DNA from: Bacillota bacterium
Lineage (GTDB): Bacteria > Bacillota > Sulfobacillia > UBA8153
Direction: 5' to 3'
NCBI GenBank assembly: GCA_007130145.1
Contig: SLSY01000012.1
Location: 1-39,550 of the forward strand
Length of the DNA: 39,550 bases
Part shown: one piece after another, positions 33,051 to 39,550 of the stretch
Position numbering within the stretch: position 1 is the first letter of the stretch
Layout of the letters: every line of letters begins with the position of its first letter
Program-made: the position numbers and the translations under genes
Notes under the pieces: model-generated
Seen by the model: the letters and a program-made list of their open reading frames with translations, nothing else
Told to the model about the DNA's origin: nothing
The model's database searches: none

Positions 33051-33812
33051 GTGGTGGTAAGAGTGCTTCTGGCCGACGACAATCGAGAGTTCTGTAGTAT
33101 CTTGGACGAATTTCTCAGCACCCAGCCTGACGTGGAAGTCGTGGGCATCGCCTATAATGGCAGCGAAGCGTTGGAACTGGTGGATAAGACCCAGCCTGAC
33201 ATTCTCCTCTTGGATATCATCATGCCCCACCTTGACGGCATCGGCGTGTTGGAGCAGTTGAGCAGCCGGGAAGAGCGTCCCAAGGTGGTGATGCTGACGG
33301 CTTTTGGGCAAGAGGAGTTCACACAACGAGTCGTTGAAATGGGCGCGGACTATTACGTCCTGAAACCATTCGATCTGGAAGTCCTGGTCAATCGAATCCG
33401 CCAGCTGTGCCAGCAACCGCATGTCGCTAAGCGTCCCCCCGCACGGTCCCGCAGCCTTGACCAGGAAGTCACCCGAATTATATGCGAAATTGGCATCCCG
33501 GCTCACATCAAGGGCTATGTCTACTTGCGCGAAGCCATCTTGATGGTGATTGCCCGGCAGGAACTGCTTTCAGCGGTGACAAAGGAACTGTATCCCACCA
33601 TTGCTAGTAAACATCGCACCACACCCAGTCGTGTTGAACGCGCCATTCGCCATGCCATCGAAGTGGCATGGAACCGTGGCAACTTCGACTTGATCAATCG
33701 CGTTTTCTCGCATACGGTGAGTCAAGAGCGGGGCAAACCGACCAACTCGGAATTCATAGCCATGGTAGCGGACAAGTTACGTATGGATATACGGGCCACC
33801 GTCAACCAATAG
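33051..33812 (+). CDS. spo0A: Sporulation master regulator Spo0A
   Basis: Spo0A is the phosphorelay response regulator that starts sporulation. The 253-residue product has an N-terminal receiver ([14 protein letters not shown]; Asp55 in [13 protein letters not shown] is the phosphorylation site; MLTAFG; Lys104 region YYVLKPFD) and the C-terminal DNA-binding domain with the recognition helix region [19 protein letters not shown] and the sigma-A contact region near [15 protein letters not shown] 33051 follows AAAGGAGAG by 4 bases; the second GTG (33054) is possible. Confidence 0.97.
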
Positions 33813-33871
33813 TAGGGTCCCGGTTGCATACCACGGGAGTTCAACCTCCATACTATAGAGGGGGGATCTCC

Positions 33872-34993
33872 TTGCGGGTAACGGGCAAAGCTAGGTTCGA
33901 CGTCTCCACAAAACGTTTGGTCCCCCGTCTTACGGCGGGGGATATTGCTGTCATTTCTCACCAAGACCTCGATGAGTTGGCCTCATCCGCTTTGGCAGAA
34001 CGTCGCCCGAACGCGGTAGTTAATCTAAAGACCAGCATCAGTCAACGTTATCCCCATAGAGGACCCGCATGCCTGCTCAGAGCCGGCATCCCCCTGCTTG
34101 ACTGCGTGACGGCAGATCTTTCTCAGGTGCTGGAAGAAGGCGATACCATCACAATTGAAGACAACACCATTTTCTGCAACAATCGTATGGTCGGACAAGG
34201 AAGATGGGTGGATGAGCAAATCCTGGAGGACGCCTGCGCGCAGGGGCACAAGAACTTAGAGACAGAACTCGAGCGCTTCTTGAAGAATACTCTGGACCAC
34301 GCCTGGGGGGAAAGAGAACTGATTCTGGGTGGATTTCGCATTCCCGCTGAGATTCCCTCTTTTGACAACCGCCATGCCCTGGTTGTGGTGAGAGGGCAAG
34401 GTTATCGCGAAGACCTTGAGATGATACGTCCCTACATACACGAAATCCGTCCTCTTGTCGTCGCGGTCGACGGCGGAGCCGACGCCCTCATCGAATTTGG
34501 AGTCACTCCCGATTTCATTGTGGGCGATATGGACAGTGTGAGCGACAAAGCCCTGGTTTGCGGCGCGCAGCTTGTGTTACACGCCTATCCCAACGGTCGG
34601 GCACCAGGCAGGGCGCGACTGGACCAGATGGAATTGGATTACGTCACCGTTCCCTCTCAGGGGACCAGCGAGGATGTGGCCTTGATGATGTGCTACGAGC
34701 GCCAGGCCGATCTCATCGTCGCTGTAGGCACACATTCTAACATCATTGACTTTTTGGACAAAGGACGGCCCGGCATGGCCAGTACCTTCTTGGTTCGTCT
34801 CAAGGTGGGTTCGCGTTTGGTCGATGCTCGGGGCATCAGCCGCCTCTACCGAGGAAGGCTGCATCCTAGCTATCTTTTGGCCATGATAGGGGCAGCACTG
34901 GTGCCCACTGCTGTGGTCGGCTGTCTGGGTTTGCCTACCCGAAACCTGCTCCGCCTTCTTTTGCTGCGACTTCTCCTGTGGATAGGATACTAA
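33872..34993 (+). CDS. steA: SteA-like putative cytokinetic ring protein
   Basis: A 373-residue protein of the SteA family (thiamin pyrophosphokinase-like fold plus C-terminal membrane helix). It begins LRVTGKARFDVSTKRLVPRL (the first residue a TTG start), with GDIAVISHQDLDELA, SISQRYPHRGPACLLRAGIPL in part, VVAVDGGADALIEFGVTPDFI in part, VGDMDSVSD, and a hydrophobic end (LAMIGAALVPTAVVGCLGL and LLRLLLLRLLLW). The corynebacterial SteA/SteB pair acts in cell division. The TTG at 33872 follows AGAGGGGGG by about 6 bases; a frame back to 33668 would overlap spo0A and is rejected. The next gene could be the SteB counterpart, as it also combines a helix with a coiled coil. Confidence 0.88.
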   Translation: MRVTGKARFDVSTKRLVPRLTAGDIAVISHQDLDELASSALAERRPNAVVNLKTSISQRYPHRGPACLLRAGIPLLDCVTADLSQVLEEGDTITIEDNTIFCNNRMVGQGRWVDEQILEDACAQGHKNLETELERFLKNTLDHAWGERELILGGFRIPAEIPSFDNRHALVVVRGQGYREDLEMIRPYIHEIRPLVVAVDGGADALIEFGVTPDFIVGDMDSVSDKALVCGAQLVLHAYPNGRAPGRARLDQMELDYVTVPSQGTSEDVALMMCYERQADLIVAVGTHSNIIDFLDKGRPGMASTFLVRLKVGSRLVDARGISRLYRGRLHPSYLLAMIGAALVPTAVVGCLGLPTRNLLRLLLLRLLLWIGY

Positions 34994-35005
34994 AGGGGAT
35001 AGAAC

Positions 35006-35716
35006 ATGGTTGATTTGAGATATTTCGTTGTGACGCTGGTCTCGGTCTTCCTTTCTCTGGCACTCGGCCTGTTCATTGGGGCGAATCTGCCTGCCGATGA
35101 TGGAGTGTGGTTGCGGCAGGATGCATTAATTACGGCACTAGAACGCGATTTCCAGGGCCTGAGAGAAGACAAGCAACGCCTTGTGGCCCATGCTACCGTT
35201 GCGGAAGAGCAATTGAAAAGCGAGCGGGAACTCACTCATGTTTTGCTATGGCCTTGGCTTCAGGGTCAACTGGGTGAAAGGCGAATCCTCCTCTGGGAAC
35301 TGGGAAGGTCGGACACAAAGGACATGTTGGTGGAGATGATCCTGGCTTCGGGTGCACATCTGCGCACGGTAGAAACCAACGACATAGGCGCGCTTGCACT
35401 TCAAGGCGATTTCCTGATCGTACTGGTAGGGGAGGAACACCTCCTAAGTGAGAACGCTAATCTCATTGATCAGGTACTCTCACATGATGTACTTGCTGTC
35501 TTGGCTTGCACCCATCACCTTCATGAACCGGTAGCATCCCTTGCTCAAACACATCAAATCCCTTATGTTGGTCATGCCGACAGCCCTGCCGGCCAGCTCT
35601 CGTTGCTCTACATTATGGCCGGGCTCAATGACCACGACCAGGGTTTTGGTTGGGCCAGCGACCTTACGCCCTGGCCGCATCCGGCCTTTCTTCACATGGA
35701 GGGACACAATGACTGA
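35006..35716 (+). CDS. SctB/MctB-like membrane-anchored coiled-coil protein
   Basis: A 236-residue protein with one N-terminal membrane helix (YFVVTLVSVFLSLALGLFIGA, in part), then a coiled-coil-like stretch (ITALERDFQGLREDKQRLVAH in part) and a globular C-terminal domain. This is the build of the MctB/SctB family (DUF3186), annotated as copper transporter from one mycobacterial member; in the steA context it corresponds to SteB. A division or envelope role fits this neighbourhood better than copper transport. AAAGGGGA precedes the ATG. Confidence 0.78.
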   Translation: MVDLRYFVVTLVSVFLSLALGLFIGANLPADDGVWLRQDALITALERDFQGLREDKQRLVAHATVAEEQLKSERELTHVLLWPWLQGQLGERRILLWELGRSDTKDMLVEMILASGAHLRTVETNDIGALALQGDFLIVLVGEEHLLSENANLIDQVLSHDVLAVLACTHHLHEPVASLAQTHQIPYVGHADSPAGQLSLLYIMAGLNDHDQGFGWASDLTPWPHPAFLHMEGHND

Positions 35717-36383
35717 AATAGCGTACGTCTCAGTGATCATACCGGCACGCAACGAAGCAGAGAATCTGGCCCCTACCATTGCTTCTGTCGAACCTTGGGC
35801 CGGGCAAATCATCGTGGTGGATGATGGTTCACAAGATCAAACCCCAGCCATAGCTGAGGGGCTCAGCGCAGAGGTCATGCAGCGGCGAACGGATCCGGGG
35901 AAGGGTCAGAGTCTAGCCTACGGCCTGACGCGGGCACGAGGAGATATTGTCGTCTTTCTTGACGCTGATTTGAGACATAGCGCCAAGGAAGGCGTCAAGC
36001 TAGTGGAGTGTGTGGCAGCAGGACGCGCCGATCTGGCCATCGCCCGCATTGATCAGGTAGGCGACCCCGGCTGGGGTTTGCTGTCCCAAGCCAGTCGGCG
36101 TCTCGTGGCTTGGCATGGTGTACACGTGAGCCAACCTCTCTGTGGACAACGCGCGCTTAGCCGGGTGGCCCTGGAAAAGATCCTCCCATTGGCCCGAGGC
36201 TGGGGTGTAGAAGTAGCGATGCTGGTTCAAGCGGCCCGACAACGTTTAGTCGTAGAGGAGGTCCCCACGAGCATGTATCATAGCGGCACCGGGCGCAGCG
36301 CACGGGGTGCACTTCACCGGGCGCGACAGGGTCTGGACATTGCCGTTGCGTTGAGCAACATGATGTTGGTTCCATGGCGATAA
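35709..36383 (+). CDS. Family 2 glycosyltransferase
   Basis: A 224-residue GT-A fold glycosyltransferase: VSVIIPARNEAENLAPTIAS, IIVVDDGSQDQTPAIAEGL, then DIVVFLDADLRHS (DxD) and QPLCGQRALSRVALEKILPL, a motif of dolichyl-phosphate mannose synthase-like and glucosyl-3-phosphoglycerate-like enzymes. There are no clear membrane helices. ATG 35709 follows GGAGG by about 4 bases and overlaps the previous stop; a frame back to 35541 is unsupported. It sits between the SteB-like gene and an MraY-like gene, which suggests an envelope glycan or lipid-linked sugar. The substrate is unknown. Confidence 0.87.
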   Translation: MTEIAYVSVIIPARNEAENLAPTIASVEPWAGQIIVVDDGSQDQTPAIAEGLSAEVMQRRTDPGKGQSLAYGLTRARGDIVVFLDADLRHSAKEGVKLVECVAAGRADLAIARIDQVGDPGWGLLSQASRRLVAWHGVHVSQPLCGQRALSRVALEKILPLARGWGVEVAMLVQAARQRLVVEEVPTSMYHSGTGRSARGALHRARQGLDIAVALSNMMLVPWR

Positions 36384-37153
36384 TCCTTTTGTCCATGATA
36401 CTAACGTGGCTTTACCTTCCACCCTTCCTTCGTTTGCTGGCACATTCACGCTTGTGCTGTACCAACTATGCCGGCCATGTCATTCCCACCAGTGCCGGAC
36501 TCATTCTTTCTTTCACCACGACCTTTACTGTGGCACTGGCATTGCTCTGGAACAGGTATCCACCCCATCAAGCTGCAGGGTTCATCATTGTCGTGAATGG
36601 CTTTGCACTAGTAGGCCTCTTGGACGATGTCGTGGGAGGCAAAGGTACGAAGGGGTGGCGGGGTCACTTGAGAACGTTACGTTTCGGAAGACTATCCACC
36701 GGTATGATCAAGGTTCTCTACGGCGGAGCCCTGGCCTTGGCGGTGGCTTCTGCAAAGACCGTAGCGCTGTGGGATCTAATTCTCAACGCTTCTCTTATTG
36801 CTCTGGGAGCGGCTCTTTTCAACCAGCTGGATGTAAGACCCGCCCGGGCCACTGTGACCTTTGTGAGCGCATCTTTTCTGCTGGGGTGGGGAGGAGGATG
36901 GACCCTCCTGTCTTCGATAGCCCCCCTGGTAGGAGCGGCTCTCGTCTACCTCCCCTTCGATAAGAAGGGTCACGCCATGCTCGGTGATAGTGGCGCCAAT
37001 GCCTTGGGAGCTGCCTGGGGTTGGGCAGCGGGAGGATTGCCCTACGGCCACAAGTGGTCTCTACTACTGCTTGCCCTTGCGTTTCACGTGGTGGGTGAAG
37101 GCTACTCCTTGCAAGGTCTAACAGACCGCATATTGCGACGGAAGCAGGGATGA
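36374..37153 (+). CDS. Short MraY/WecA-like glycosyltransferase (GT4 membrane family)
   Basis: A 259-residue polytopic membrane protein with motifs of the polyprenyl-phosphate N-acetylhexosamine-1-phosphate transferase superfamily: VGLLDDVVGGKGTKGWRGHL, then LSTGMIKVLYGG, FNQLDVRPARA and GHAMLGDSGANALGAAWGW. It is shorter than MraY or WecA (about 320-360 residues) and has a reduced N-terminal region, in which the pair RLLAHSRLCCTNYAGHVIPTSAGL (given in part) corresponds to the usual KGxPTMGG region without its lysine-rich loop. The reaction is probably transfer of a sugar phosphate to a lipid carrier, but the substrate is unknown. It overlaps the preceding glycosyltransferase by 10 bases. Confidence 0.8.
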   Translation: MAIILLSMILTWLYLPPFLRLLAHSRLCCTNYAGHVIPTSAGLILSFTTTFTVALALLWNRYPPHQAAGFIIVVNGFALVGLLDDVVGGKGTKGWRGHLRTLRFGRLSTGMIKVLYGGALALAVASAKTVALWDLILNASLIALGAALFNQLDVRPARATVTFVSASFLLGWGGGWTLLSSIAPLVGAALVYLPFDKKGHAMLGDSGANALGAAWGWAAGGLPYGHKWSLLLLALAFHVVGEGYSLQGLTDRILRRKQG

Positions 37154-37194: not shown

Positions 37195-38916
37195 ATGACT
37201 ACCACGCGCCGCGAGCGAGAGCTTGAGGTGATCCTCAATTCTACCCATGATGCCATGATCGCCGTGGATCGACACGGTCGTATCACGTTGTTCAATGCCG
37301 CTGCAGAGAGACTCACACAGATTCGGGCCGTCGATGCGTTGGATCAGCCCGTAGAAGAGGTGATCTCATCCAGCCGCTTGCCTTTGGTCTTGCAAACCGG
37401 GGAAATCGAGCTCAATCGGCGCCAAAGACTTCATGATATCACCATCATCACCAACCGCATGCCGGTGCGAGATGACAAGGGAGAGATTATTGGCGCGGTA
37501 GCCGTCTTTCGCGACATCACCGATGTGCAAACACTGGCAGAAGAGATCAGTAATCTCACCGAGGTGCAGACCTGGCTTAAGGCGGTCATCAATTCCACCC
37601 AAGACGCCATATCCGTGGTGGACGCCGAGGGCAACGGTCTGCTCATCAATCCGGCTTATACGCGCCTTACGGGTCTGACCGAGGAGGATGTTATCGCAAA
37701 GCCTGCCACCGTCGATATTGCTGAAGGTGAGAGTATGCACCAGCACGTTTTGCGCACGGGTAGGCCGGTGCGTGGCGTACCCATGAAGGTGGGACCGCGC
37801 CGCAAGGAAGTACTCGTCAATGCCGCTCCCGTCATCATTGATGACTCGGTGCGCGGGTCGGTGGCTGTTGTGCACGATGTGTCGGAGATATACCGGCTGA
37901 TGGATGAGCTCGAACGAGTCAAGAGCTTGGTGCGCCGGTTGGAAGCCAAATACACCTTTGACGAAATCGTAGCTGTAAGTCCCGTCATGAACACGGCGGT
38001 GGAACAGGCCCAACGCGCTGCCATCACCCCGGTCACAGTGCTCTTGAGAGGCGAAAGCGGCACAGGCAAGGAACTGTTCGCCCACGCCATTCATCGTGCC
38101 AGCAAGAGAGAAGAAGGCCCCTTCGTACGTGTGAACTGCGCAGCCTTCTCTGATTCCCTGCTCGAGAGCCAGTTATTCGGATACGTGGAGGGAGCGTTCA
38201 CCGGAGCGCTTCGTGGAGGCAAGCGCGGCCTTTTCGAAGAAGCCAACGGAGGCACCATCTTCCTTGACGAAGTGGGTTTGATGAATACCAACCTGCAGAT
38301 GAAGCTACTGCGGGTCCTCCAAGAGAAAGAGCTGATACGTGTCGGAGATACCAAACCCGTCCCGGTGGATACCCGCATCATTGGAGCTACGAATATGCAG
38401 TTGGAGCAGGCGGTAGCCCGTGGTGAGTTTCGGGAAGACCTCTATTACCGTTTGAATGTCGTGCCCATTTTCATTCCTCCTCTACGCGAGCGCAAGGAGG
38501 ATTTCCCCCAGCTGGTGCACCACTTGATACGCAACTTCAACCAGGAGTATGGACGAAATGTAGAGCGCTGTTCACCAAAAGCCCTGGAAAAACTGATCTC
38601 CTATTCGTGGCCTGGCAATGTCCGCGAGCTGGAGAACATTCTTGGGCGAGCCATCATTCATATGAGTTATCAGGAGCATTCTATTGAACTGCATCACTTA
38701 CCACTTCTTGCCGCATGTTCCGATTCTCCTTCCCCGGCGACCGCAACTCCAACCCCGTCCACACGCTCCCTGAGGGACGCGGTAGAACACGCCGAACGCC
38801 AGGCCATTACATCAGCCCTACAGGCCTCCAAGGGCAATCGCACCCGCACAGCCCAGCTCCTGGGGATCTCGCCACGCACCCTCTACTACAAGCTGGAGAA
38901 GTTGGGACTGCAATAG
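37195..38916 (+). CDS. Sigma-54-dependent activator with two PAS domains
   Basis: A 573-residue enhancer-binding protein. PAS domains cover about 8-115 (VILNSTHDAMIAVDRHGRITLFN, in part) and 125-235 (VINSTQDAISVVDAEGNGLLI, in part); the AAA+ domain about 258-490 has Walker A GESGTGKELFAHAIHRAS, the sigma-54 contact loop GAFTGA near 334 and GGTIFLDEVG; the Fis-type helix-turn-helix is at the end (GNRTRTAQLLGISPRTLYYKLEKLG, in part). Family knowledge: such proteins sense a signal with PAS domains and remodel sigma-54 RNA polymerase. A matching -24/-12 promoter and inverted repeats lie right after it, in front of an amino-acid dehydrogenase gene. The likely role is control of branched-chain amino acid breakdown, as with BkdR. 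Confidence 0.94.
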   Translation: MTTTRRERELEVILNSTHDAMIAVDRHGRITLFNAAAERLTQIRAVDALDQPVEEVISSSRLPLVLQTGEIELNRRQRLHDITIITNRMPVRDDKGEIIGAVAVFRDITDVQTLAEEISNLTEVQTWLKAVINSTQDAISVVDAEGNGLLINPAYTRLTGLTEEDVIAKPATVDIAEGESMHQHVLRTGRPVRGVPMKVGPRRKEVLVNAAPVIIDDSVRGSVAVVHDVSEIYRLMDELERVKSLVRRLEAKYTFDEIVAVSPVMNTAVEQAQRAAITPVTVLLRGESGTGKELFAHAIHRASKREEGPFVRVNCAAFSDSLLESQLFGYVEGAFTGALRGGKRGLFEEANGGTIFLDEVGLMNTNLQMKLLRVLQEKELIRVGDTKPVPVDTRIIGATNMQLEQAVARGEFREDLYYRLNVVPIFIPPLRERKEDFPQLVHHLIRNFNQEYGRNVERCSPKALEKLISYSWPGNVRELENILGRAIIHMSYQEHSIELHHLPLLAACSDSPSPATATPTPSTRSLRDAVEHAERQAITSALQASKGNRTRTAQLLGISPRTLYYKLEKLGLQ

Positions 38917-38945
38917 CTTGCAGGCAAGAAATTGCAGACTCTGCA
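38917..38945 (+). promoter_or_regulatory. Two inverted repeats, candidate activator-binding sites
   Basis: CTTGC-AG-GCAAG (38917-38928) and TGCAGA-C-TCTGCA (38933-38945) are perfect inverted repeats just downstream of the activator gene, about 55-80 bases before the sigma-54 -24 element. Upstream activating sites are commonly placed there or a little further. They are candidate sites for the PAS-AAA-HTH protein encoded next to them. Confidence 0.5.
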
Positions 38946-38997
38946 TCTTCTTTCAGGCATGACTTGAGGTTATACAGCCTAGCGCCGGGCGAAGACA

Positions 38998-39015
38998 TTG
39001 GCACGGTTCTTGCAA
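38998..39015 (+). promoter_or_regulatory. Sigma-54 (-24/-12) promoter of the amino-acid dehydrogenase gene
   Basis: TTGGCACGGTTCTTGCAA contains TGGCACG, four bases, then TTGCA, a full match to the sigma-54 consensus with GG at 39000-39001 and GC at 39012-39013. Transcription would begin about 12 bases further on, near 39025, leaving a short leader with AAGGAGG before the dehydrogenase start. Confidence 0.9.
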
Positions 39016-39043
39016 TGTACAAGTGTAAGGAAGGAGGATGACC

Positions 39044-39550
39044 TTGAAACTCAACATATTTGAACGTATGAAGGAAGAGGGTCACGAGCAGATATTCTTC
39101 TGCCAGGACGACACAGCGAATCTTCGTATGCTCATCGGGATTCACGATACCACCTTAGGCCCCGCTCTGGGCGGTTGTCGTATGTGGCCTTATGACCACG
39201 AACACGAAGCCGTTACAGATGTGCTCCGGCTCTCCCGTGGTATGACCTCCAAGTCGGCTTCCACCGGCCAGAATTTCGGTGGTGGAAAGGCGGTTCTTTG
39301 GGGCGATGCCGCCAAGGACAAGGATGAGGCGCTTTTTCGCACTCTGGGCCGCTTTGTTGAAGGCTTGCAGGGTAATTTCATCACTGGTACAGACGTAGGG
39401 ACCACCGGAAAGGACTTCGTTTGGTCTCAACAAGAAACCAACTACTTGGTGGCGCTTCCCGAAAGTCACGGCGGAAGCGGTGACTCCTCTCTCACGACAG
39501 CCTTCGGCGTCTTCCGGGGGATGCAGGCTTGCTCACAGACCGTCTTTGGC
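39044..39550 (+). CDS. Leucine/phenylalanine/valine dehydrogenase, N-terminal part, cut by window edge
   Basis: The frame stays open through 169 codons to the window end. It has GPALGGCRMWPY, GMTSKSASTGQNFGGGKAVLWGD (given in part) and FITGTDVGTT, typical of NAD-dependent leucine, valine or phenylalanine dehydrogenases. Lys70 and Lys82 are the expected catalytic pair. These enzymes deaminate branched-chain or aromatic amino acids to 2-oxoacids. TTG 39044 follows AAGGAGG by 6 bases; ATG 39038 is in frame but too close to the ribosome binding site. Expression is expected to depend on sigma-54 and the neighbouring activator. Genes for the next steps, such as phosphotransbutyrylase, may lie beyond the edge. 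Confidence 0.9.
   Translation, partial: MKLNIFERMKEEGHEQIFFCQDDTANLRMLIGIHDTTLGPALGGCRMWPYDHEHEAVTDVLRLSRGMTSKSASTGQNFGGGKAVLWGDAAKDKDEALFRTLGRFVEGLQGNFITGTDVGTTGKDFVWSQQETNYLVALPESHGGSGDSSLTTAFGVFRGMQACSQTVFG

Follow-up and report, generated by a model that had tools for sequence, protein, structure and literature searches.

The last 2.4 kb of the analysed DNA very probably carry a BkdR-type sigma-54 switch (37195-39550) that controls the breakdown of branched-chain amino acids. The window, 39,550 nucleotides long, is the whole of contig C31 of a 2.37-Mb draft genome in 258 contigs (G000), and its end comprises an activator gene and, after an intergenic region, the first part of an amino-acid dehydrogenase gene. 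The initial annotation had predicted a local sigma-54 switch for branched-chain amino acid use at this place. The switch itself is strongly supported by the presence of rpoN, a conserved promoter, the co-occurrence of that promoter with the activator and a tandem operator found once in the genome, and the substrate agrees with the leucine-dehydrogenase-type neighbour and with what orthologues of the activator precede, namely bkd, ptb, buk and vor genes. The proposed placement of the operators, on the other hand, has to be given up, and on the probable continuation contig genes for a 2-oxoacid:ferredoxin oxidoreductase take the place of the expected bkd genes. A switch of this kind is already known; what distinguishes the present one is the exchange of its enzyme module, and it appears to serve fermentative rather than respiratory breakdown.

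Table 1. Features of the switch locus and of its conserved upstream neighbour, in window coordinates
Feature	Position	Strand	Basis
spo0A, neighbour upstream of the locus, conserved in the class	33051..33812	+	matches and gene order in relatives
BkdR-type sigma-54 activator, PAS1-PAS2-AAA+-Fis HTH, 573 aa	37195..38916	+	domain matches, relatives, tree
Candidate operator 1, TGCAATAGCTTGCA	38909..38922	.	16.8 bits, best 14-mer of the window; begins inside the activator gene and covers its last codons and stop
Candidate operator 2, GGCAAGAAATTGCA	38923..38936	.	14.4 bits, second-best 14-mer of the window; abuts operator 1
Possible weak operator 3, TGCATCTTCTTTCA	38942..38955	.	6.25 bits; recurrent 14/19-bp spacing
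Predicted sigma-54 -24/-12 promoter, TGGCACGGTTCTTGCA	38999..39014	+	consensus match, conservation in related loci
Ribosome binding site, AAGGAGG	39031..39037	+	sequence
Leucine-dehydrogenase-type amino-acid dehydrogenase, cut by the contig end	39044..39550	+	profile and structure-sequence matches

The activator and its relatives

The domain matches of the activator comprise two PAS domains, a sigma-54 interaction domain, an AAA lid and a Fis-type helix-turn-helix, and its GAFTGA motif can be read from the sequence at 38191-38208, which bears out the initial description of a PAS-PAS-AAA+-Fis activator adjacent to the promoter. The rpoN gene, for which that annotation had recommended a search, is present once in the genome, on contig C69. 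In the nearest relative found (G001, of the same family) the layout is identical to that of the window locus. Ahead of the activator, the stretch 33051-37153 holds spo0A followed by MctB-like, glycosyltransferase and MraY-like open reading frames, and these neighbours recur in relatives.

Orthologues of the activator occur in 18 of 81 genomes (its own and 80 relatives of the class), 59-70% identical over the matched part with E <= 1e-180; no further match in those 81 genomes passed the limit of 1e-130. A search of named genomes gave 41 loci, and among 299 genomes sampled from the phylum 92 have a match at 1e-120, a count that includes weaker paralogues and single-PAS forms. Full-length relatives, 57-65% identical, precede lpdV-bkdAA-AB-B in L112, L123, L141 and L198-L202, and the activator forms one clade with the relatives that precede bkd operons (98/97 in the tree). 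Because single-PAS relatives nest within this BkdR clade, BkdR and RocR-like proteins cannot be told apart by sequence alone; the window protein has two PAS domains and so lacks the single-PAS feature of RocR. On this combined evidence we classify it as a BkdR-type enhancer-binding protein.

Most full-length matches in Bacilli are open frames of about 690-740 aa, compared with 573 aa here, and the window protein is without the N-terminal extension of the Bacilli BkdR proteins, seen in L112, L123 and other Bacilli loci. In L123 the extension weakly matches a model of NAD-binding acetaldehyde dehydrogenase (E 7.6e-6), and it could provide a redox input, absent from the window protein.

What might the PAS domains sense? 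The predicted structure of the PAS pair is of moderate quality (mean pLDDT 79.6, pTM 0.45) and resembles many PAS proteins and the cytoplasmic PAS of CitA/DcuS; no ligand follows from the model or its structural matches. The signal had been left unnamed at the outset; the BkdR family has been studied in Bacillus for isoleucine/valine use, as the available text of PMC4428206 describes.

A conserved sigma-54 promoter

All 12 consensus positions are matched by TGGCACG-GTTC-TTGCA (38999-39014), the full match claimed in the initial annotation, and neither strand of the window has another 12/12 match. GG at -24 and GC at -12 stand at the fixed spacing, and the genome has rpoN, as expected of a sigma-54 promoter. 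Transcription would start near 39025, a position that we presume from the -12 GC at 39012-39013 and that agrees with the one first proposed. For the gene itself, TTG at 39044 is a more likely start codon than ATG at 39038, because of its spacing and because relatives begin M-x-x-F. The genome's other perfect promoter match, C214:1779, was considered as a co-target and rejected, as it falls inside a tryptophanase-like open reading frame; a tyrosine phenol-lyase above the curated cut-off (L063, G000:C214, 2347-3726) adjoins that frame.

The promoter survey started from 87 loci (L083-L169). Removal of two duplicates left 85, and 84 of these have 500 bp or more of sequence downstream. A promoter matching 11-12/12 lies downstream of the activator, on the coding strand and within 500 bp, in 68 of the 84 loci, while 11/12 was reached by 0/84 on the opposite strand and by 22/1680 dinucleotide shuffles, although the locus counts are not independent because the loci are related. 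Among the 16 failures, the region of L093 carries a run of N, L096 and L097 have the activator apart from the dehydrogenase, the gap of L099 is widened and its promoter lies at a greater distance, at the dehydrogenase, the promoter of L126 lies more than 1 kb away, and L132, L133 and L135 have no gap at all. L142-L145 show no strong promoter directly downstream of the activator; two of these genomes, examined at length, have a 12/12 promoter with operators on the divergent side, towards buk.

A dehydrogenase match was found in 72 of the 81 genomes, and the best 30 dehydrogenase loci of the class were compared according to whether their genome has the activator. With the activator (n=10), a promoter of at least 11/12 is present in 10/10 and operators in 9/10; without it (n=20), neither is present in any (0/20). 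In G064 activator and dehydrogenase lie on different contigs, and promoter and operators are still kept at the dehydrogenase. Taken with its placement in related loci, the consensus match indicates that the promoter at 38999-39014 is real.

The operator array

An operator motif was built from 122 sites of other loci, none of them from the window, and it picks out the two strong sites of the window, which are abutting 14-bp dyads of the form TGCAA-N4-TTGCA. Upstream of the promoter, GCAA-N4-TTGC is present in 45 of 68 related regions, compared with about 1.1 expected, and TGCA-N6-TGCA in 53 of 68; within the 68 regions GCAA/TTGC pairs number 70 at a spacing of 4 and 0-2 at each other spacing from 0 to 15. 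Three operators were counted in 34 regions, two in 15, one in 11, four in five and none in three. Successive operators most commonly start 14 bp apart (42 pairs), and the exact arrays include 14-19 in six regions and 14-18, 14-20 and 14-21 in two each; the site at 38942, if counted, gives the window a 14-19 array.

The tandem operator, with up to 3 mismatches allowed, occurs once in the 2.37-Mb genome. Of 18 other genomes searched with up to 2 mismatches, 13 contain it: 12 at a single place and G213 at two. The second tandem operator of G213 (L206, 4396-4487) has its own sigma-54 promoter and faces an alanine dehydrogenase, which suggests that the regulon has been enlarged to that gene in G213. 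In L085, L086 and L092 (G077, G060 and G047) the promoter is kept and the operators are absent or weak, with half-sites of TTTCA type in place of TGCA, perhaps reflecting a recognition helix that changed with them.

The two perfect inverted repeats reported earlier upstream of the promoter (CTTGC-AG-GCAAG, 38917-38928, and TGCAGA-C-TCTGCA, 38933-38945) are present to the letter, but are out of register, because both strong sites given by the motif built outside the window lie about 8 bp further upstream. As an operator the first repeat was rejected as the junction of the two abutting dyads, and the second for its N5 in place of N6 spacing, the nearest register, at 38932, scoring -9.4 bits. The literature searched, which left out most subscription papers, yielded no description of this operator motif, and the comparison of loci thus far reads as a new resolution of the operator code of this switch.

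The probable target operon

Contig C64 begins at a second dehydrogenase, followed by butyrate kinase (the only such match in the assembly), a ferredoxin-like protein, VorB, and beta and gamma subunits. By synteny only, C64 is the probable continuation of C31. A search of the whole assembly for a separate ptb gave no match, which leaves the C31-C64 join at probable. No bkd genes were found on C64. The bkd/buk operon anticipated beyond 39550 would therefore, if C64 continues C31, be correct as to buk and have vorBAC in place of bkd.

Gene orders behind the orthologues vary. Class relatives G060 and G077 have spo0A-activator-aadh-buk-ptb-aadh-buk-fd-vorBAC, and in most Clostridia loci the orthologue precedes buk-ptb-buk-fd-vorB-vorA-vorC. 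In the Bacilli loci L112, L123, L141, L198, L199, L200 and L202 it precedes aadh-lpdV-bkdAA-bkdAB-bkdB, and in L201 ptb-aadh-buk-lpdV-bkdAA-AB-B, the gene order known from the bkd operon of B. subtilis. In L203 (G403:C28) one activator stands before ptb-aadh-buk-fd-vorBAC, followed by lpdV-bkdAA-AB-B.

The genome's only other strong sigma-54 activator (L172, G000:C90) precedes a gene for L-erythro-3,5-diaminohexanoate dehydrogenase, an enzyme of lysine fermentation, which scores above the NCBIfam cut-off; TGGCACGCATCTTGCG lies between activator and gene. Sigma-54 may serve amino-acid fermentation only in this genome.

Alternative explanations

Could the -24/-12 match and the repeats be products of chance, with the dehydrogenase transcribed by read-through or from some other promoter? 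By chance the whole genome should hold about 2.3 perfect matches, and it holds two; the promoter is also missing within 500 bp in the 16 loci described above. In the 121 bp that contain the match, however, the expectation on this strand falls to about 6e-5, and the conserved placement in 68 of 84 loci, the perfect split of the 30 class loci by presence of the activator and the uniqueness of the tandem operator make such a coincidence highly improbable. We give equally little credence to a RocR-type regulator of arginine or ornithine use that sits here by happenstance. The nesting of single-PAS relatives in the same clade would allow it, as would a published tree in which RocR arises from BkdR's second PAS region (in the part of PMC3734008 available), but the protein has two PAS domains, no arginine genes were seen, leucine dehydrogenase lies behind the adjacent promoter, and the genome has a single tandem operator.

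A more serious contender, though still an unlikely one, is a BkdR-like switch for aromatic or other 2-oxoacids, acting on a tryptophan or phenylalanine dehydrogenase and an indolepyruvate-type oxidoreductase. The ZypR group known from Clostridiales controls tyrB-iorAB-butK (PMC6615313, as far as available), and the NCBIfam match of the dehydrogenase is tryptophan dehydrogenase ScyB, below the cut-off. Among solved enzymes compared with the fragment in the window, however, leucine dehydrogenase (1leh, 9e-55) scores well above tryptophan (1e-38) and phenylalanine dehydrogenase (1e-16), VorB on C64 reaches its curated cut-off while the indolepyruvate model does not, and the orthologues in Bacilli precede bkd. 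A switch for branched-chain amino acids accordingly remains our preferred reading.

Proposed mechanism and significance

Activators of sigma-54 bind dyads as dimers, are released by a signal, assemble into a hexamer and open the promoter. Here, activator dimers would bind the two abutting 14-bp dyads, and perhaps the weak third, 44-90 bp upstream of the -24/-12 promoter. A signal of branched-chain amino acid breakdown, read through the PAS domains, would lead to assembly of the AAA+ ring, which would open the promoter that sigma-54 RNA polymerase keeps closed. The leucine-dehydrogenase gene would thereby be turned on and with it, judging by synteny, an operon whose last genes encode leucine dehydrogenase, butyrate kinase, ferredoxin and VorBAC. 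Leucine dehydrogenase would convert the amino acid to the 2-oxoacid, Vor would convert this to acyl-CoA and reduced ferredoxin, and the acyl-CoA would pass through acyl phosphate (ptb) to the acid and ATP (buk); valine, leucine and isoleucine would end as branched acids with a yield of ATP and reduced ferredoxin.

It is possible, though on balance slightly doubtful, that one ancient BkdR and its TGCAA-N4-TTGCA array have remained fixed across Firmicutes while the enzymes were exchanged, NAD-linked bkd for ferredoxin-linked Vor, with a hybrid intermediate. The array, often of three dyads at 14/19 or 28-29/14 bp, would then be a scaffold on which three dimers are brought together into a single AAA+ hexamer. 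If this is true, the shared signal would have to lie upstream of the exchanged step and would therefore be an amino acid or 2-oxoacid; the comparison of bkd and vor settings narrows the PAS signal because the decarboxylating enzyme alone differs between them. The analysis offers a testable operator code for the BkdR family, places a switch known from aerobic Bacillus also before ferredoxin-linked fermentation clusters of anaerobes, and points to a branched-chain amino acid fermentation operon in this uncultured lineage.

Comparison with known systems

We found no account of sigma-54 control of a buk-ptb-vor cluster in the literature searched, again mostly without subscription papers. In the available part of PMC6615313, Table 1 lists 39 activator groups of Clostridiales, of which ZypR is nearest; a buk-ptb-vor target is absent from them, though Geosporobacter ferrireducens, which carries such a cluster (L102), was analysed. 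The Clostridia sigma-54 regulon of PMC12316311 includes butyrate kinase, and the available text makes no mention of this system.

The closest known system is BkdR/SigL of B. subtilis and B. thuringiensis (ptb-bcd-buk-lpdV-bkdAA-bkdAB-bkdB). Both have an activator with two PAS domains, as BkdR is described in the text available of PMC4428206 and PMC3734008, directly upstream of and co-directional with its target. The promoters are near-identical: that of B. thuringiensis ptb, TTGGCACGGTATTTGCT, needs sigL and bkdR, and a sigL mutant of that species does not grow when leucine, isoleucine or valine supplies the nitrogen (PMC4428206, as far as available). L201 has a 12/12 promoter and the same operators, and its activator is 62% identical to the window's. 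The window system differs in the missing N-terminal extension, in a first gene of leucine-dehydrogenase type in place of ptb and, on the probable continuation, in vorBAC replacing bkd. RocR is a sister sigma-54 activator of amino-acid catabolism with a related second PAS (PMC3734008, in part), but it has one PAS domain and arginine/ornithine targets.

ZypR likewise is a sigma-54 activator of an amino-acid oxidation cluster (PMC6615313, in part). The enzymes there are others, ior and tyrB. We take ior to be a ferredoxin-linked oxidoreductase and butK a gene of the butyrate-kinase family, which would be a likeness to the present cluster. Several operator dyads clustered upstream of a sigma-54 promoter are also familiar from NorR, where they are thought to build one hexamer; NorR differs from the window switch in sensor domain, signal and operator sequence.
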